64,000 nucleotides of DNA from Parvularcula lutaonensis (GTDB taxonomy: Bacteria > Pseudomonadota > Alphaproteobacteria > Caulobacterales > Parvularculaceae), in contig NZ_BMXU01000001.1 of assembly GCF_014651915.1 (NCBI RefSeq), positions 1,371,501-1,435,500 of the forward strand, written 5' to 3'. Each line of letters begins with the position of its first letter. Within the stretch, counting starts at the first letter, position 1. The notes under the pieces were generated by a model, which made no database searches, was not told where the DNA came from, and saw only the letters and a list, made by a program, of their open reading frames with translations. The position numbers and the translations under genes were made by a program. This document shows, in pieces, positions 7,625 to 61,645 of the stretch.

Positions 7625-9832
7625 TTACTGATTACAGTGCTCCGTGCCAAAATAGTGTGTGAGGACGCTCGTCGTGACGGCGTCCCTTTCCTTGTCCGTC
7701 AGAGAGAGCGGCTCCGCAGGCCCGCCGCATGCGGAGGCCACACAACGCCGTCCTGCTTTTGACCGGACGCGGATACGCGTCCTGGCATCGTCGCCGAAAT
7801 TCTCACTGAAATGATCTGATTCCAGCACCTCGCGTGCCGCTTGGCATTGGCCGCTGTGTGCAAGAGCCTCGGCGTGCAACCACCGGACGCGGGCATCCGG
7901 GAGGCTGCCGGGAGCGAATCTCTGCCCAGCGCCCTCGAGGATACTCTCGAGCAGCGTGAGGGCGTCAGCGGGACGGCCATCGTTGAAAGCGATCTCGGCC
8001 TGCAATGTCGTGGAGAGGATCACATCGCGGCTGTTGGGAGCGTACTTCAAAAGGTCCGCATGGACACGGTCTGCGATCTTGCTGGCGGTCTCGCTATCAC
8101 CGCTCCCGTAGAAAAGGGCTTCAGCGGCCCGCAGCCGATAGGCGCTGTCCTGTACGATATCCTTGCCGACGGTGTTTTCATCAGCGATCTTCATGGCTTC
8201 GACAATCGACGCCACCCGGCCATCGAGATCGCCGAGCCGCTCGAGCATCCGCCCGCGCTTGTCCCAGAGGAATTGCCGAAATTGAGGCGACGGCTCGTTC
8301 TCCAGTGCCTTTTCGAGCACCGGCAGCGCGGCTCTCGCATCGCTCTCCTCATAGGTCATCTCGGCAACCGTGGCGGCGGCGGCAGCGTGATTGGCCGTGT
8401 TCGCGCCGGGTCCCTCCGCATACCGCGCGAGATAGCGACGGGCATAGGGGAGCGCCTCGTCCTCCCGGCCAGCGTTGCGCAGGGCGACGTACAGCGCACC
8501 CTCTCCCTGCAGCAGCCAGTAGGGATCCCCATAGCCGGCATCGATCCATGGCTTCAGGATCTCTACGGCCCCATTGAAGTCGTTCTTGTACAGGAGAGTC
8601 CGCCCCACGGTGAAGACGACACGGGCCGCGGCATCGGGCTCGTCCTGCCACGTGGCGTGCGCTTCACGGGCAGCTGTCAGGTAATGCTCCGTAAACGCCT
8701 CTTCGTCAACGCCCAGATCGAATGCAGCACGCTGCATCAGGCTGGCCGTGGTCGCCTGCTGGCCTCCTGTGAACTGCGCGTCCTGCAGGGCGAGCTCTGT
8801 AGCGGCCAGTGATGCGGCCAGCTCCGACCGGCTTTTCGCGACACTGTCGAGGAGAACGAGACTGGCCGTCAGCCCACCGACGAGCGAGACCAAGAGCGCT
8901 GCAGCGGTTACGGACAGAACAGTGTTCCGCCTCACGAAACAGGCGAAGCGGTAGCCATTGCCACCGCCAAAGGCCTCGACGGGCCGATTCTCCAGCACCG
9001 CGCGGATGTCCGACGCGAGACGGTCGACACTGCTGTAGCGGTCCTCCGGGTCAGGAGCTGTAGCCTTGCGGATGATTGCCTGAAGCTCTGGAGAAAGACC
9101 TTCTGTCGTTGGCAATTCGACGCCGCCCGCAGCGTTCCGCTTCGGCAACTTCTCGGTCAGCAGGGTATAGAGGACGAGGCCGAGCGAGAAGACATCCGAA
9201 GCCACCGAAGCAGGCTCGCCTCGCCACTGTTCAGGGGCTGCAAACAGGGCGGTCATGCCGCCTTCCGGGTTGGCCCGGTCCATTGATACGGAAATTCCGA
9301 AATCGATCAGGCGCGGTCGTCCGTCCTTGTCGAGAAGGATGTTTGACGGCTTGATATCCCGGTGAAGCACGAAAGCTCGGTGGGCATAGATCACGGCGTC
9401 ACAGATCTCGAGGAAGAGGCGCAGCCGGTCGTCTCGTGACAGCTCGGGTGGGATTTTCTCCGAAAGCGGCGTGCCTTCGACGAGCTCCATGACGAGGAAA
9501 GGGCGCCCGTCCGGGGCGGTGCCCCCATCGATCACGCGTGTGATTCCGGGGTGCTCCAGCTGTGCGAGCGCCTGCCGCTCCCGGCGGAACTGCTCGGCAG
9601 CTCTGGGATCGGTCAGGGCGACGAGTTTCAGCGCCGCTGTCGCTTCGTAAGCACCGTCGGCCCGTTCGACCTCGTAGACCTCACCCATACCGCCGCGGGC
9701 AATCAGCCTACGGATACGCCACGCGCCGAAGACCGTGCCGGGTTCAGACGATGGTTCGGGACCGGACGAAAGCTCGGGCGCGCTGGTTCTCAGGAAATGT
9801 GTCGGGGCATCGTCGTCGCTGGTTGAGCTCAT
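7625..9832 (-). CDS. Transmembrane Ser/Thr protein kinase with C-terminal tetratricopeptide-like region
   Basis: The product is 735 residues. The kinase domain (about 36-285) has the glycine loop ARGGMGEVYEV, the ATP lysine K69, the catalytic loop HRDIKPSN (D159), DFG at 177-179 and APEQWRGE, so it looks catalytically intact. One transmembrane helix lies at about 305-328. It is followed by about 400 residues of helical, alanine-rich repeats resembling tetratricopeptides, predicted to be extracytoplasmic, with several cysteines near the end. It begins 3 nt after the ECF sigma gene and is the last gene of the unit. Kinases of this build paired with ECF factors are known in several phyla, where phosphorylation can activate the sigma factor; here that is inference. 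Confidence 0.92.
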   Translation of the reverse strand: MSSTSDDDAPTHFLRTSAPELSSGPEPSSEPGTVFGAWRIRRLIARGGMGEVYEVERADGAYEATAALKLVALTDPRAAEQFRRERQALAQLEHPGITRVIDGGTAPDGRPFLVMELVEGTPLSEKIPPELSRDDRLRLFLEICDAVIYAHRAFVLHRDIKPSNILLDKDGRPRLIDFGISVSMDRANPEGGMTALFAAPEQWRGEPASVASDVFSLGLVLYTLLTEKLPKRNAAGGVELPTTEGLSPELQAIIRKATAPDPEDRYSSVDRLASDIRAVLENRPVEAFGGGNGYRFACFVRRNTVLSVTAAALLVSLVGGLTASLVLLDSVAKSRSELAASLAATELALQDAQFTGGQQATTASLMQRAAFDLGVDEEAFTEHYLTAAREAHATWQDEPDAAARVVFTVGRTLLYKNDFNGAVEILKPWIDAGYGDPYWLLQGEGALYVALRNAGREDEALPYARRYLARYAEGPGANTANHAAAAATVAEMTYEESDARAALPVLEKALENEPSPQFRQFLWDKRGRMLERLGDLDGRVASIVEAMKIADENTVGKDIVQDSAYRLRAAEALFYGSGDSETASKIADRVHADLLKYAPNSRDVILSTTLQAEIAFNDGRPADALTLLESILEGAGQRFAPGSLPDARVRWLHAEALAHSGQCQAAREVLESDHFSENFGDDARTRIRVRSKAGRRCVASACGGPAEPLSLTDKERDAVTTSVLTHYFGTEHCNQ

Positions 9833-9835
9833 GGC

Positions 9836-10441
9836 TCACACGGCCATTTGTTGCGCGAGCCAGTTCCTCGCTGCCCGCCATTCGCGCCGGACCGTCCGTG
9901 TCGAGCATCCCATCAGCTCGGCGGTCTCTTCTTCGGTCATGCCCGAGAAGTAACGGGCATCGAGAAGCCGGGGCCATCGCGCGTCCTGCACGCCCATGGC
10001 CGAGATGAGGTTCGTAATCGCAACGATGTCTTCCGGGGTTTCCTCGAACTCCGGAAAAAGCGGCGATGCCTGCTCCATCGGGACCTCGGCGAAGCGGTCG
10101 CGCGAGGCCGTCGTCCTGCGCCGTGCATAGTCGCAGATCACCTGCCTGATCGCGAGAACCGCCGTGCTGACGAAGTGATCGTTCGATGTCCAGGTGACGG
10201 TTCCCGAGAGCTTGAGCAAAGCCTCATGGACGATGTCGTGGGTCAGCAGTGAAATGGGGACCGCGTGGCGTCGCCGCTTTGACCGGGCGATACGCAAAAG
10301 GGCATCGTAATGCTCTTCGACGAGCACCGCGGCGGCCTGCTCTTCCTGCAGTGTGTAGGCGCTGGCCAACTGGTCTTGCAAAGCCCCCATGGAAAGAGGA
10401 TTGCAGAAAACAATACTGGTCGCAAGGCTCGGGGCGTTCAT
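9836..10441 (-). CDS. ECF-type RNA polymerase sigma factor
   Basis: The product is 201 residues. Region 2 lies at about 38-115 (HYDALLRIARSKRR ... LTHDIVHEALLKL ... IRQVICDYARRR). Region 4 is at about 145-198 with a clear helix-turn-helix MTEEETAELMGCSTRTVRRE. The pattern resembles the ECF/Sig-70 families encoded beside Ser/Thr kinases rather than anti-sigma factors, and no anti-sigma gene is present here. The ATG at 10441 lies 3 nt after the barrel gene's stop and has no clear ribosome-binding site, so translation is probably coupled; ATG 10390 is an alternative start. It could control its own operon. Confidence 0.9.
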   Translation of the reverse strand: MNAPSLATSIVFCNPLSMGALQDQLASAYTLQEEQAAAVLVEEHYDALLRIARSKRRRHAVPISLLTHDIVHEALLKLSGTVTWTSNDHFVSTAVLAIRQVICDYARRRTTASRDRFAEVPMEQASPLFPEFEETPEDIVAITNLISAMGVQDARWPRLLDARYFSGMTEEETAELMGCSTRTVRREWRAARNWLAQQMAV

Positions 10442-10444
10442 TGG

Positions 10445-11710
10445 TTACAGGGCAAACCCAATGCTGAGGGTCACGCGGGACGCGTCGCCGAACTGTCCGA
10501 AAAGCCCTTGGCGCGGTCCGTAGAATAGATCGCCGCCCAGCGTGGCGGTCCACGGACCGCCGAGCTGTCGCGTGAGCTCCGTACGAAGAACGCCGTCGCC
10601 CGTCCCATGGGTATGCAGGCTCTCGGCCATCAGGGTCCACCGGTCCGTGCCGAGATCGCGCCGGACCCGCAGGGTGGTCACCACGTCCCGGTCCGGGCGC
10701 ACCGCATCGACGTCGGACGTCAGCTGGTCGATGATGACCTGTGCGTTGAAATACGTCTCGCCGAACGCATACCAGTCAGCACCCGCCCCCACCGTGAGAC
10801 GGCCCGTCTCATCATCCATCGGAAGCGACGCGGGGCGAAGGTTGACGGGCTGGTCGAATACATAGGCGGCCTCGAACCGCAGGACGGCGGCGCCCGCGGG
10901 CCGGACCAGATCGACGCCGAGCATGGTCGTCCGGTCGTGAGCAACCTCCAGTCCGGTTCCGTTGAAGCGCACGACACCTTCAAGGTCAGGCCCGGACAAG
11001 GCTACGAGATGCGCGTCTGTCCTGCCGAAGGACGTTCCGATCCGCGCGCCGAGGCGAGGGCTCTCCCCGAACCCTCCGGGCACGTCTCGCTCGGGATTGG
11101 TGGCGGTCACCCCAACTTCGTATCCACCGCGGAACCGCGGCGCTACCGGCTCGAAGGCGTCGCCAGGCGCAGCGACCTGTGTGACGCTCCCGAAGGGCGC
11201 CGCGGCGAAATCATAGGACAGACGGCCGACCTCGCCCCGGAGCCGCGCCGCCCAGACGGGGATCCGGTCGGGTCTCGGTTCCCTCGCGACCCACTCGGTC
11301 AACCTCTGGGGATTGAAGCCGTCCGTGATCCGAACACCATCGAGGACACCCCAGGCGACCGTCTGCTTCCCCAGCGTCAGGCGAGAATGTCCGAGGTCGG
11401 CCTCGAGCGTGACATGATCGAGTTCCAACCTGGCATCGTCGCCGATCTCAAGCGGCTGTTCAGCATCCGCGAAGCCGTCCAGTCGCCCGAGCCCTGTCCG
11501 AGATCCCGCGGCTTCGATCCGCACCCCCGCACGGAAGGAGAGCCACGCCGAGAGCTCCTCGCGCAGCTCCGGGCGGAGCAAGGCATAGGTCTGAGCGACG
11601 CCGTCCCCATCGGCCGCCATCCTGAGTTCGCCGTCCAGCCGCAAAGGGTGTGCCCTCGCCTGGCCCAACAACATAACCGTCAGCACTGTGAGCGATGCAA
11701 GTCTTATCAC
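10445..11710 (-). CDS. Outer-membrane beta-barrel protein of the exporter operon
   Basis: The product is 421 residues with a signal peptide (MIRLASLTVLTVMLLGQARA) and alternating amphipathic strands throughout, ending in an aromatic/hydrophobic final strand (DASRVTLSIGFAL) as in barrel proteins. Segments such as LTLGKQTVAWGVLDGVRITDGFNP and RIPVWAARLRGEVGRLSYDF resemble DUF1302-like outer-membrane proteins often found with MMPL exporters. The start is GTG at 11710, overlapping the TGA of the LolA-like gene (GTGA). It probably forms the outer-membrane end of an envelope transport route together with the two genes before it. Confidence 0.75.
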   Translation of the reverse strand: MIRLASLTVLTVMLLGQARAHPLRLDGELRMAADGDGVAQTYALLRPELREELSAWLSFRAGVRIEAAGSRTGLGRLDGFADAEQPLEIGDDARLELDHVTLEADLGHSRLTLGKQTVAWGVLDGVRITDGFNPQRLTEWVAREPRPDRIPVWAARLRGEVGRLSYDFAAAPFGSVTQVAAPGDAFEPVAPRFRGGYEVGVTATNPERDVPGGFGESPRLGARIGTSFGRTDAHLVALSGPDLEGVVRFNGTGLEVAHDRTTMLGVDLVRPAGAAVLRFEAAYVFDQPVNLRPASLPMDDETGRLTVGAGADWYAFGETYFNAQVIIDQLTSDVDAVRPDRDVVTTLRVRRDLGTDRWTLMAESLHTHGTGDGVLRTELTRQLGGPWTATLGGDLFYGPRQGLFGQFGDASRVTLSIGFAL

Positions 11711-12480
11711 GGAAGCTGGCTTCCGGCCCGGTCAAGGTCGCGCGCATCGAACAGCGTGGCGCTCAGTCCCCGGGCGACGCGGGAGTCGTCAACGCGGACA
11801 GAAGTCGACCGTCCGGTCTTGTGGTTGACGACCTCGAAGGACTTGGCAGTCCAACTGTCACCAACACGCTGAACTTCATTTACCTCGATTGTCTTCAGCG
11901 GTTCGCCTTCGGGATCTGCGAAATCGATGAGCATAGGGAACCAGGTCTCGGGATCGATCTCGGCCCGGAACCCTCCATAGCCGGTTTCTCGGGCGACCTG
12001 CGGGCTCTTGGATGTCCCGATCAGGACGAGGCGACCGTTCTTCTCACCGCCCGCCTCGAAGTCATAGTCGGCGAGGCCGAATTTGAAGTCGTCCTTGACA
12101 TCGCCATAGGTCAGTTCCGTGGCCATGAACCGGCCAGACCTGTCCGTCGAAGGGATACGCCGCACTCTCTCCGTTGACGGAAGGAAAAGCCAGGTCTCGT
12201 CGGCCGCTTCGGGGGCGACGTAATCGAAGCTGAGAAAGGCCGTATCGCGAATATTGGCGGGACGGTCGAAGAGCAGCAGCATGCGGCTGACTTCATCTGT
12301 CTCGCGCACGGCCAGGCGTGCGGTCCGCTCTCGCTCCCGTCCCTTGCTATCCCGGAGCGTAAATGTGATCTGGCCTGTTCGCTCATCGTCAGCGATGCGG
12401 TTAGCGATCTTCTCGGCAATCGCCTCGCCGGACATCGCTTGGGTGACGGCCAGAAGGCAGACGGCGGCAAGTTCAAGCAT
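11707..12480 (-). CDS. LolA-like outer-membrane lipoprotein-sorting family protein
   Basis: The product is 257 residues from ATG 12480, which has an AAAAGG ribosome-binding site and gives a signal peptide (MLELAAVCLLAVTQAMSG). The beta-rich domain includes RLLLF-type and ETWLFLPSTERVRRIPSTDRSGRFMATE segments and YGGFRAEIDPETWFPMLIDF. These match the LolA-like 'outer membrane lipoprotein-sorting protein' family that accompanies MMPL exporters. Such proteins are thought to carry lipids or lipidated cargo across the periplasm. It overlaps the exporter gene by 8 nt and the barrel gene by 4 nt. Confidence 0.85.
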   Translation of the reverse strand: MLELAAVCLLAVTQAMSGEAIAEKIANRIADDERTGQITFTLRDSKGRERERTARLAVRETDEVSRMLLLFDRPANIRDTAFLSFDYVAPEAADETWLFLPSTERVRRIPSTDRSGRFMATELTYGDVKDDFKFGLADYDFEAGGEKNGRLVLIGTSKSPQVARETGYGGFRAEIDPETWFPMLIDFADPEGEPLKTIEVNEVQRVGDSWTAKSFEVVNHKTGRSTSVRVDDSRVARGLSATLFDARDLDRAGSQLP

Positions 12481-14782
12481 GAGCCTTTTGCTTTCCACGC
12501 TGATAAAGCGCTGTGAGTGCGGGAATGAGGATGAGCGCACCGAGAAGGCTTCCGACCGCCGAGGAGGCGATGAGAAGACCGAACCATCGCAGGACGGGAG
12601 TGCCGCTGGTCGCGACCACGCAGAAACCCGCCGCGAGGCTCAGGGCACTGAAAAGGCATGCACGCATCACCGTGTCGTAGCCAGCAGGCAGGAGCTGCCC
12701 CGGCGACTTGGGTTCCGCCTTGAGCGCCTTGGTCAGGTGGATGCCGAAATCCACCCCGAGACCGGCGGCGATCGCTGCACACATCGACGTTGCCGGCGCC
12801 AGATCGATGCCGAACACCGCCATCGCGGCATAGAGCAGCAGGATCCCCGTCATGACGGGAACGATCGCGATGAGTCCCTGGCGCAGGCTCGACAGCACGA
12901 CCACGGTCGCGATGAAAACGAAGAGGACTGCCGCGCCGATCGTCCGGGCGTGACTGGCCCGCAGCGCCTTCATCCAGCCATCGTTCACCGCCAGGCGGCC
13001 GCTCACCTGGACATCGATACCGGTGTCCGCTGAAGCGTCCGCGGCGATAGAGGCGAGTTCCTCGACCAACGGTTCGTTGGCGGAGAATTTCCCCGTTGCG
13101 GCATGGCCCCGAAGCCTCGTGTAGCGGCGCCCGAAATCGATCTGGTTGTCGAAGTCCTCGGGTTCTCCGCTGGCCTCGTACAACAGCATGTATTCAGCAG
13201 GCGCATGGTCCGAGGTCGGCAGGCTGCCCGGCTGCGCACCGGTGAGGCGCTCGTGCATCAGGGAAATCTGTTCACTGAAGGCGCTGACGGTCCGGATGCC
13301 CTCGAGGGCTTCGAAGCGCTGCTGGAGGTCGTCCACCTTGGCCACGGCATCAGCGGTAAGGAGGCCACCGTCCTCGCCTGTATCAACGATGAGATCGACA
13401 ACATTTCCGCCGTCGAACCGTTCCTGCAGGATCTGGTCGGCCTGGAGGACAGGGTCACCTGCGAGAAAGTAGTTGTCTCGCTCATAGTCGAACCTGACCT
13501 GCAACGCGAATGCGAGAGCGACCGCGAGGAAAAATCCGGTCAGGATACAGGCCAGGAGAGGCCGCTCTGCCGATGCGGTTGCGAGACCCCTCAGTATCCG
13601 ATCCATCCAACTCGCGGAGGTCCCTGCGCCTTTCCGGTCGGCGAGATACACCTGAACCGCGGGCAGGAAGGTCAGGCTGAGAACACCGGCGGCCATCGTC
13701 CCCGCGGCCGCGACGAGTCCGAACTCGGCCACGGGAACCATGGGCGAGCCGACCGCCAGGCCGAGAAAACCCAAGGCGGTCGTCACACTGGTCAGAATGA
13801 TCGGCGTTGCGACATCGCGCATGGCACGACCCATCGCTGCCCGGCGGGACAGCTCTGGATGAAGCCTCCGCTGCCGCTGAAAGGCAAGGGTGAGGTGAAT
13901 GCTATCGGCCACCGCGATGGCCATGACGACAACTGGCAGTGCCGTGGTGATGAGATAGTAGCGACCGTCCATCAGGCCGATGGATCCGACGGCCACGATG
14001 GCTGCGCCCGCAACAACGATAAAGGGTGCGATGATCGCCGTCGGGCGCTTCAGGGCCCATAGCAGGAAGAGGGCAATCACGACGGCAGCAAGGGGAAGGA
14101 AGACTTTCGTGTCATCCGCGATTCGTTCAGCCAACCGACTGTTCATGGTCGCCACGCCTGTCAGGTGGACCTCGACACCGGGTGGCGCCAACCGCTGAGC
14201 GAGGTTTCTCACTTCGCTGACGACCTGTTCGGCGTGGTTCGGATCATCGACCGGAACGATTGCGGCCAGCGCATCCCCTGTATGAGCGATGAGCGTTCCT
14301 TGGAACGGAGGCATCGACGCAACCAGCTGTTCAGCCGCCTCGGGATCGATCGGGTCGCCAACGATCAGTGGCGCTTCGAGATCGCCTGCATCATTGGTGA
14401 CGATGGCCCTTTTCGACGCGAGGCTCATCACGCCCGGGGCGACGCCGCCGATCTCTTGGACCTCTTCCGTGAAGGCCCTGAGGGCGCTCAGCAGTGGTTC
14501 ATTGAGAGCCGATTTGCCCTCTTTCTCGGCAAAGACGACGATAATCGGGTCTTCGATACCGAAGGTCTCGCGAGCGAAGTCTCGCGCAGCGACGGCGGGG
14601 TGGTCATTCGCAACGAAGGCATCGACCGATGAATCCTTCTGGACCAGCGTCAATCCGTAGACAAACCAAAAGAGCGGGAGAAGGGAAATCAGCACGGTCA
14701 GCCAGGGTGCCGCCAGCAGGATATCCTGCCAGGTCCGATTACCCGTCGTGCGCGCCATCCCGGCAGAGCCAATCGCTTTCAT
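12473..14782 (-). CDS. RND-superfamily MMPL exporter
   Basis: The product is 769 residues with about 12 transmembrane helices in two homologous halves, each with a large periplasmic loop. The paired proton-relay segments MAIAVADSIHLTLAF and GLGVDFGIHLTKAL lie in the middle helices of each half, as in the HAE3/MMPL group that exports lipids, hopanoids or other hydrophobic molecules. ATG 14782 is preferred; GTG 14788 and ATG 14758 are alternatives. It is the first gene of the unit leading to the LolA-like protein, barrel, ECF factor and kinase. The 121 nt upstream (14783-14903) must hold the promoter unless transcription reads in from the VPLPA-CTERM gene. Confidence 0.92.
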   Translation of the reverse strand: MKAIGSAGMARTTGNRTWQDILLAAPWLTVLISLLPLFWFVYGLTLVQKDSSVDAFVANDHPAVAARDFARETFGIEDPIIVVFAEKEGKSALNEPLLSALRAFTEEVQEIGGVAPGVMSLASKRAIVTNDAGDLEAPLIVGDPIDPEAAEQLVASMPPFQGTLIAHTGDALAAIVPVDDPNHAEQVVSEVRNLAQRLAPPGVEVHLTGVATMNSRLAERIADDTKVFLPLAAVVIALFLLWALKRPTAIIAPFIVVAGAAIVAVGSIGLMDGRYYLITTALPVVVMAIAVADSIHLTLAFQRQRRLHPELSRRAAMGRAMRDVATPIILTSVTTALGFLGLAVGSPMVPVAEFGLVAAAGTMAAGVLSLTFLPAVQVYLADRKGAGTSASWMDRILRGLATASAERPLLACILTGFFLAVALAFALQVRFDYERDNYFLAGDPVLQADQILQERFDGGNVVDLIVDTGEDGGLLTADAVAKVDDLQQRFEALEGIRTVSAFSEQISLMHERLTGAQPGSLPTSDHAPAEYMLLYEASGEPEDFDNQIDFGRRYTRLRGHAATGKFSANEPLVEELASIAADASADTGIDVQVSGRLAVNDGWMKALRASHARTIGAAVLFVFIATVVVLSSLRQGLIAIVPVMTGILLLYAAMAVFGIDLAPATSMCAAIAAGLGVDFGIHLTKALKAEPKSPGQLLPAGYDTVMRACLFSALSLAAGFCVVATSGTPVLRWFGLLIASSAVGSLLGALILIPALTALYQRGKQKAHA

Positions 14783-14903
14783 TGTCACGCTTTTCCGGTC
14801 ACTCGATGCGGATACGACCGGGGCGGGCGAATCCGGCCATTGGGTGGGAAAGATTCTGACCCAAGGACGGAAACGCCGGCCCCTGCCGCTCCCCCTGTGC
14901 CTG

Positions 14904-15575
14904 TCAGGCTTTCGGCTTGCGTTGTTTGGAACGGGCGAAGCCGAGGCTCGCCAGACCCGCTGCGAAGAGCGGCAGTGCGCCCGGAATGGGGACGGGGTTT
15001 GTGGGCGCCGGCGTGAAGTCGATCGTCAGGATCGGACTGAACGCAGCACCAAAGCCCTGCTCCATCGACAAGAACGCCAGCGAGGCGAAACTGTCGGTCT
15101 CGAGCCGCAGGGTGAGAAGCCCGCCGAGCTGCGCCTGCAGAGGCAAGAGTTGGGTGAGGTTGAAGTTGAAGATGTCGAGCTGGCTGCCGCCGGTCGGGAT
15201 GCTGCCGTCGAAGACCTGCGTTCCGGCTGCACCGAAGTCAGCAATGGTGACCGCGCCGTCTCCTCCATAAGCGAAGATATCGACTTCCGCCGTTGCGCCG
15301 ATGGCGTTGCTGACCGGACGGGCGAGCGCTAGGCTGAGGCTCGCAGCATTGACTGTAGCGCCGGGCCCAATAGCGCCGAGGTCGAACTCCAGCACGCCAT
15401 TGACGATGTTCACGCCAGACTGGACCACGCTGATGGTATCGCTGGTCGTGTCCACGGAATCGCCGCCGAACGTTTTGACCGTGCCGTCGTCCGTGGCCGT
15501 GAATTGGATGGTGGCCGCGCTCGCCTGCCCCCCCAGGAGTGCTGCGCCCATGGCGCCGATCAGAAGTCTTCTCAT
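14904..15575 (-). CDS. Secreted protein with VPLPA/PEP-CTERM-type sorting signal
   Basis: The product is 223 residues. A signal peptide (MRRLLIGAMGAALLGGQASA) is followed by a beta-rich domain of unknown function. The C-terminus has the sorting pattern VPIPGALPLFAAGLASLGFA followed by the basic tail RSKQRKPK, close to the VPLPA-CTERM form of exosortase signals. The ATG at 15575 is chosen over an in-frame TTG at 15587 because GGGGAC lies directly upstream. Such proteins are processed by exosortase and often belong to surface or extracellular matrix; no exosortase is in the window. It lies upstream of the MMPL operon on the same strand with a 121 nt gap. Confidence 0.78.
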   Translation of the reverse strand: MRRLLIGAMGAALLGGQASAATIQFTATDDGTVKTFGGDSVDTTSDTISVVQSGVNIVNGVLEFDLGAIGPGATVNAASLSLALARPVSNAIGATAEVDIFAYGGDGAVTIADFGAAGTQVFDGSIPTGGSQLDIFNFNLTQLLPLQAQLGGLLTLRLETDSFASLAFLSMEQGFGAAFSPILTIDFTPAPTNPVPIPGALPLFAAGLASLGFARSKQRKPKA

Positions 15576-15906
15576 TTTCGTCCCCAACTTACTGGTTTAC
15601 CTGCGACGAAACCCGCCGCTGAGAAGGAAACGTCCAAGGACCAGCAATCCGGCCAAATTATTTTGCCGCTGCGGTATCTTCAGGATCGAACGCCGCTATC
15701 CTGCCGCTTTCCGCTGTCTTTTCCGGACTCATTTGCCTGTCCCGTGGCACAGCTCTGGAGCGTCACAGGATCATCGGCCCAAGACGCTTCGGGACCTGGC
15801 CGGAAGCTGCTCCCAAGCCAAAGGTCCACCCCTCAGGCCCGCAAGATGCGGGGCACACGTCCGATGCGCTTGAAGCGCATCGCTATGTCATTGGAAAAAA
15901 AGATAA
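15576..15906. other. 331-nt intergenic region with a perfect inverted repeat
   Basis: No credible coding frame is seen. The region holds the upstream side of the VPLPA-CTERM gene and the downstream side of tRNA-Ser. An inverted repeat with 10-nt arms CGATGCGCTT (15862-15871) and AAGCGCATCG (15873-15882) around one central G is perfect. On the minus strand a run of seven T residues (15894-15901 region) follows the tRNA CCA end and may assist termination. Confidence 0.7.
15862..15882. repeat. Perfect 21-nt inverted repeat downstream of tRNA-Ser
   Basis: Arms CGATGCGCTT and AAGCGCATCG are perfectly complementary around a single G. As RNA the loop would be tight and no T tract adjoins it, so a DNA-binding dimer site is at least as likely as a terminator. 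No partner copy was noticed elsewhere in the window. Confidence 0.6.
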
Positions 15907-15996
15907 TGGCGGAGAGAGAGGGATTCGAACCCTCGGTACGGTTACCCGCACAACGGTTTTCGAGACCGCCCCGTTCGACCACTCCGGCACCTCTCC
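15907..15996 (-). tRNA. tRNA-Ser (anticodon CGA)
   Basis: Read on the minus strand, the 90 nt fold into a serine tRNA. The acceptor stem GGAGAGG pairs with TCTCTCC (one G-T pair). The anticodon loop CTCGAAA gives anticodon CGA, which reads UCG. A long variable arm typical of class II tRNAs follows (GCGGGTAACCGTACC region), then the T-arm GAGGGTTCGAATCCCTC. The discriminator is G, and CCA is encoded (15909-15907). A T-rich stretch follows directly. Confidence 0.96.
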
Positions 15997-61450: not shown

Positions 61451-61645
61451 ACTCGATACCTTTGCGTTTTGAGGCCGGATAGCACCCCGCCGCGGCCTTT
61501 CAAACCCCTGAGAACCCCTATGGTTGCAGGGAAGACGCACCCGGCCTGAAAAATCGGACAAGACCGTGAGGACGCGGGCAAATTCGCTTCCCCTCGCCTA
61601 TTTGATGGGCCAAGGTCGGGAACGACCAAGGAGGAAAGTCCCATC

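Follow-up and report, generated by a model that had tools for sequence, protein, structure and literature searches.

The window analysed here is a stretch of 64,000 nucleotides from the genome of Parvularcula lutaonensis. Five of its open reading frames, all on the minus strand, encode in order an MMPL transporter, a LolA-like carrier, an outer-membrane barrel, an ECF sigma factor and a receptor kinase. These genes and the features that adjoin them are listed below.

7625..9832, minus strand: Hanks-type Ser/Thr receptor kinase (Pkinase 2.6e-36, TPR_12 1.9e-8)
9836..10441, minus strand: ECF sigma factor, sigma2 + sigma4, PF07638 (Sigma70_ECF 8.2e-23)
10445..11710, minus strand: outer-membrane beta-barrel, divergent DUF1302 relative (matches of homologues, AF2, Foldseek)
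11707..12480, minus strand: periplasmic LolA-like carrier, PF17131 (LolA_like 1.5e-35, 123 bits)
12473..14782, minus strand: MMPL / HAE3-type RND inner-membrane transporter (Pfam MMPL 1.4e-26)
14811..14839, minus strand: candidate operon promoter, assigned to the linked sigma factor, TGGCCGGATT-N13-CGTATC, beginning 57 bp upstream of the MMPL ATG
14904..15575, minus strand: secreted PEP-CTERM-like protein (signal peptide and C-terminal VPIPGALPLFAAGL sorting tail, by eye)
15627..15655, minus strand: second candidate promoter, TGGCCGGATT-N13-CGTTTC, before the PEP-CTERM-like gene (PWM score 20.2)
15907..15996, minus strand: tRNA-Ser(CGA), at the segment edge (ARAGORN)

The MMPL and LolA-like genes overlap by 8 nt (ATGCTTGA), the LolA-like and barrel genes overlap by GTGA, and gaps of 3 nt separate the barrel from the sigma gene and the sigma gene from the kinase gene. 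The open reading frame coordinates agree in strand, order, overlaps and gaps with what an earlier note on this DNA had described. The same note had remarked on the absence of an anti-sigma gene, and no anti-sigma family match was obtained among the ten open reading frames scanned with Pfam.

The first three genes encode a putative transport route across the envelope. The transporter gene starts at the ATG at 14782, with a GTG also available at 14788, and its product keeps an intramembrane Asp in each half (VADS and GVDF, by eye). The best NCBIfam match is TIGR00921 HAE3 (1.8e-46), at 158.6 bits and under the cut-off of 351.9. By profile the protein belongs to the same RND branch as the hopanoid transporter HpnN, also HAE3 (TIGR03480, 2e-31), but it lies far under the HpnN cut-offs (108.8 versus 751.85; 52 versus 1100), and HpnN is said in the available text of PMC6394551 to work without dedicated partners, unlike the window trio. 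The LolA-like gene begins at the ATG at 12480, in a frame that opens at the GTG at 12540; the protein also matches DUF1329 (1.5e-7, 31.5 bits against a cut-off of 23.1) and, in the PDB, 3bk5 (2.9e-24), 4z48 and 9tp6. The window barrel has no match in Pfam or NCBIfam. DUF1302 is matched by two of the three homologous barrels scanned (L067, 2.1e-10; L150, 4.6e-15), the one from L075 having no match. AF2 predicts a beta-rich fold for the window barrel at moderate confidence (pLDDT 66.8, pTM 0.66), and among solved structures Foldseek matches it best to porins, OprD-type channels and AlgE (E ~1e-9). At two loci elsewhere, MMPL and the LolA-like protein are fused in one frame (L067:5833-9030, 1065 aa; L068:10837-13983, 1048 aa), a natural fusion suggesting that the RND pump hands over directly to the LolA-like carrier. 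A second and far more distant type of MMPL/LolA-like/barrel trio occurs in the same family (L070-L073), with no sigma or kinase matches.

The remaining two genes encode the predicted regulators. The Sigma70_ECF match spans residues 34-200 of 201, so the protein consists of sigma2 and sigma4 only; against NCBIfam TIGR02999 it reaches 119.4 bits, under the cut-off of 126.15, and a profile search of solved structures with the sigma clade gave no match. The kinase has the catalytic Lys, HRD and DFG, and a single hydrophobic segment at about residues 304-326 is followed by TPR-like helices (AF2 model pLDDT 72.4, pTM 0.47). We infer a cytoplasmic kinase domain, one transmembrane segment and an extracytoplasmic C-terminal TPR-like domain.

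How widely is this gene set kept? Searches with the sigma factor and the barrel covered 398 genomes of the order, with the first few candidates per genome scored, so all counts are lower bounds. Sigma matches occur in at least 102 and barrel matches in at least 31 of the 398 genomes; a strong barrel match (E <1e-20) was obtained in at least nine (own, G081, G084, G324, G333, G057, G011, G031 and G183), and all five genes are contiguous in at least five (own, G081, G084, G324 and G333). No further genome had the sigma gene within 20 kb of the barrel gene among the matches listed. In the order search, neither this sigma clade nor this barrel occurs in the genomes of the same genus. Among 385 genomes of the class, barrel-profile matches number 17 and are strong solely in the own genome, G705 and G729 (two places), and sigma-profile matches number 11, all weak except the own one. 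The strong trios of G705 and G729 have no kinase match alongside. A remote ECF-like match in G705 (E 1.1e-6), some 7.8 kb past the barrel and without a kinase match, was judged unrelated to the trio.

Only in the window are all five genes co-directional and in one-operon order. The sigma gene is divergent from MMPL in the four relatives; it is convergent with the kinase gene in G084 (L075) and G081 (L078), whereas the kinase gene lies downstream of the sigma gene in G324 (L076) and downstream of the barrel in G333 (L077). Strict conservation of a five-gene operon is therefore ruled out, and what is conserved is the neighbourhood, not the operon. The earlier note had proposed a search for the five-gene order in related genomes; the genes are contiguous in these four, but order and strand differ and the position of the kinase varies; the translational linkage of sigma and kinase to the exporter, which gave that note its headline, is special to the window, the sigma gene being on the opposite strand in the other four. 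Because the five genes are kept contiguous, although rearranged, in four genomes of another family, their neighbourhood is more than chance. The note had also made its case depend on whether sigma and kinase genes occur without the trio in most relatives. For the wide sigma family they do, with the exporter trio at four of the 36 fetched non-window sigma loci and a kinase match at 32; within the sigma factor's own clade they do not, the trio being present in five of seven.

In gene trees, the MMPL sequences from the trio-linked genomes group in one clade (100/100), and their sigma factors fall within a seven-row clade (100/98) alongside those of the trio-less loci L074 and L080. The "trio" label needs three changes on the sigma tree and so does not mark one unbroken group. 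The sigma and MMPL trees share the inner pairs (L075, L078) and (L076, L077), and the five kinases cluster weakly, with L085 falling among them (80/77). We read these patterns as one module with losses, which they are compatible with rather than proof of. The window MMPL sits on an unusually long, flagged branch (1.57) within its clade. As for the two trio-less members of the sigma clade, L074 (G224) and L080 (G174), no kinase was found in the fetched stretches, that of L074 ending at its contig end; L074 has a TGGCC-type site that points at a Methyltransf_24 gene, and L080 is near a TcfC/CooC_C (chaperone-usher-like) gene.

The evidence for regulation comes from a promoter motif. The motif TGTCCGGTT-N13/14-CGTWW faces MMPL in all five trio-linked loci, the window site being admitted after the pattern was widened by one letter. 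In the four relatives it consists of TGTCCGGTT (TGTCCAAAT in L078), 13-14 nt and CGTWW, 72-94 bp before the MMPL start. When each locus was left out in turn, its site ranked 1 of 38922 in L075, L076 and L077, 3 of 34104 in L078 and 5 of 127920 in the window. The nine tested MMPL genes of sigma-less trios score 2.2-9.2, where random 450-bp pieces reach 10.8 at the 95th percentile (L071 and L072 left out, some gene starts approximate, and the random pieces including the training loci). In 32 held-out sigma loci, six of 22 matches lie within 480 bp upstream of the sigma gene, with 0.59 expected (binomial p 1.9e-5); these six come from six different loci and are all oriented away from the sigma gene. 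The genes faced at held-out loci include a methyltransferase gene at L074, and those at L079, L081, L084 and L104 and the first gene of L102 have no Pfam family. At L083:3144-6858, a sigma relative and a kinase stand beside a three-gene operon that ends in Peptidase_S46 and is preceded by a motif match.

Exact matches to the window-derived pattern number two in the own genome, one preceding MMPL and one preceding the PEP-CTERM-like gene; these had to match, as the pattern was built from them, and what is informative is the absence of others. Three one-mismatch matches were obtained there, along with one match of the reversed control. With the relatives' pattern, the single exact match in G084 and in G324 is the MMPL site, the MMPL site of G333 is a one-mismatch match, and that of G081 does not fit. 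No wide regulon is claimed from one-mismatch matches: in six other genomes they number 9, against 29 for the reversed control, and therefore exact or near-exact sites alone are meaningful. Autoregulation through a sigma-facing site in the relatives was rejected, since the best scores (5.5, 0.2, 6.1 and 3.7 in L075-L078) are at background level. A site before the L075 kinase gene scores 14.1, where the 99th percentile of random pieces is 14.6. The change of TGT to TGG in the -35 element is common to the window sites and to L074; the sigma factors of the two are sisters (98/90). Residue T181 of the sigma4 recognition helix was considered as the cause of this difference and set aside as a lead only; the window and L074 fit, and L081 does not. 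A strong motif match (score 20.8) also lies at window positions 61532-61560, where a frame that matches DUF3576 begins.

The shared promoter motif that the earlier note proposed to look for upstream of 14782 is thus present, also facing MMPL in four relatives, and its search elsewhere in the own genome yields one further exact match, before the PEP-CTERM-like gene. Taken with the conserved neighbourhood, the shared motif makes the proposal that the sigma factor transcribes the exporter a probable one.

Whether the kinase controls the sigma factor as in described pairs is a separate question. EcfP/PknT of Vibrio parahaemolyticus and EcfK/PknS of Xanthomonas citri are ECF43 sigma factors with Ser/Thr kinases, according to the available text of PMC8999054, PMC8103513 and PMC13147305. 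Like the window pair, they consist, as described there, of a two-domain ECF gene beside a membrane Ser/Thr kinase gene with no anti-sigma gene, and EcfK/PknS adjoins the system that it controls (T6SS), as the window pair adjoins the exporter. The predicted output here differs, being an HAE3/LolA/barrel exporter. In ECF43, phosphorylation falls on the Thr at position 3 of the DAED-equivalent motif, which reads STTA in EcfP and QATE in EcfK (available text of PMC13147305, PMC8999054 and PMC8103513), and Thr occupies this sigma2.2 position in 88% of ECF43 according to the accessible part of PMC13147305. The window sigma2.2 motif is L-T-H-D (LTHD-IVHE), which, in contrast to EcfP and EcfK, places H68 at the phospho-Thr position beside Asp69 at position 4. 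Across the seven-row clade, position 3 is H, E, E, V, S, M and A, with Thr in none of seven and Glu in two; outside the clade, 18 of 30 sigma rows have Thr there. Position 2 is Thr in all seven (Thr67 in the window) and position 4 is Asp in all seven, so that the ECF43-type uncharged replacement of the DAED acids is not seen in the window or the clade. The linker E-T-P-E, which contains Thr135 in the window, is also invariant in the seven clade members and is a further difference from EcfP and EcfK; by a hand count of spacing, EcfK T106 would come before Thr135.

Because the clade lacks the ECF43 phospho-Thr, the EcfP mechanism is not simply transferable, and the known phosphorylation mechanism to which the earlier note appealed does not carry over directly. 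If phosphorylation is the switch, the phosphosite would be at a position other than that of EcfP and EcfK, with Thr67 and linker Thr135 as candidates. The ECF43 switch does not appear to operate as described, and a related switch is possible.

These residues bear on an alternative in which the sigma factor drives the exporter but has no phospho-switch, being active whenever it is made, while the kinase targets another protein (e.g. the exporter) or tethers the sigma factor at the membrane. The acids at position 4 throughout the clade and at position 3 in two members, the lack of Thr at position 3, and the absence of a kinase from the fetched L074 and L080 stretches are in its favor. However, the kinase gene is contiguous in five of five trio-linked loci and present at most of the fetched sigma loci, Thr67 and the E-T-P-E linker are invariant, and EcfK, although it retains Glu at position 4 (QATE), is still activated by its kinase and needs a linker site, as described in the available text of PMC13147305. 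We consider this alternative rather unlikely, and prefer a kinase that acts on the sigma factor.

The direction of transport is the second point at which another reading has to be weighed. The earlier note knew of no description of the five-gene combination, and none was found in open-access papers; the nearest, in their available text, are the ECF43 papers and the AmeABCD paper (PMC6394551). In AmeABCD of Castellaniella defragrans an HAE3 RND protein, a DUF1329 LolA-superfamily protein and a DUF1302 protein are encoded together. The window trio shares the DUF1329 match, while its transporter falls under the HAE3 cut-off and its barrel is tied to DUF1302 through homologues. AmeABCD differs from the window, where the open reading frame list and Pfam place no AmeC-like gene between or beside the five genes; in the available text of PMC6394551 it comes with neither sigma factor nor kinase, and its barrel (605 aa) and LolA-like protein (451 aa) exceed those of the window in length. 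The trio might instead be an importer or an outer-membrane lipid-maintenance path under the same control. The MMPL protein has sterol-sensing/Patched-like matches in the Pfam scan, in the PDB it matches an NPC1-related sterol transporter best, and transport direction is not readable from sequence; yet the best NCBIfam match is to an HAE3 RND, and AmeABCD, the nearest studied cassette, is described as an efflux system in the available text of PMC6394551. We hold import or lipid maintenance to be improbable and keep outward transport as the preferred reading.

The surroundings of the segment bear on its history. The PEP-CTERM-like protein has a weak DNRLRE domain match, below the cut-off, and its gene is a probable further target of the sigma factor, given the site before it. 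Its homologue in the same-genus genome G009 (L186, 50% identical) has no motif site (score 0.7); G009 lacks this barrel and has a distant sigma factor only. The five-gene segment starts just past the 3' end of tRNA-Ser(CGA), and synteny with the same-genus genomes G009 and G003 stops at 15905 (blastn, tblastn). Five same-genus zwf stretches were compared: the tRNA-Ser junction is present in G009 and G003, one stretch is cut at 2.1 kb, and two have no tRNA there. The segment looks acquired. A tRNA-island reading was rejected, as no integrase was found in the window and no direct repeat longer than 12 nt was found. That the sigma/kinase pair and the exporter are adjacent mainly by co-travel on an acquired tRNA-Ser segment, with a loose regulatory tie and the main sigma targets elsewhere, is very improbable: the tRNA junction and the absence of the barrel and this sigma clade from close relatives agree with it, but the motif precedes the exporter in every linked locus and is at background level before the nine unlinked ones, no other exact match occurs in the own genome or, with the relatives' pattern, in G084 and G324, and neither an integrase in the window nor a direct repeat over 12 nt was found.

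Starting from the gene set, the conserved neighbourhood, the motif and its position, all of which are observed, we propose a circuit in which the kinase acts on the sigma factor and the sigma factor on the exporter promoter, dedicated to one exporter and with positive feedback in the window only; we regard it as likely. The receptor kinase, with its TPR domain outside, would sense envelope state, cargo or the exporter, and, with its kinase domain inside, would activate the neighbouring ECF sigma factor. The sigma factor would then recognise TGtCCGGtT-N13/14-CGTww and transcribe MMPL-LolA-barrel. The RND pump, the periplasmic LolA-like carrier and the outer-membrane barrel would together export a hydrophobic molecule. 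As the operon of the window ends with the sigma and kinase genes, activation would feed back positively there, and the secreted PEP-CTERM-like protein would be a second target. In the relatives the sigma gene is divergent and no site faces it, so this feedback would be special to the window. A more specific form of this reading is tentative and, on balance, doubtful: the locus would come near to a single-operon kinase-controlled ECF system, a closed exporter-sensing loop with a promoter class of about one exporter (plus, in the window, a surface protein), switched at Thr67 or Thr135 and with natural acids at the usual position.

Judged from sequence comparison, the five genes form a real, rare and conserved module with a well-supported predicted target and a switch mechanism of candidate standing. 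Few outputs of kinase-activated sigma factors have been studied (T6SS, polymyxin resistance), and a single switch residue is accepted for them. With its predicted promoter and output, and lacking that residue, this locus is a compact case that makes both the switch mechanism and the function of HAE3/LolA-like/DUF1302-type exporters directly testable.
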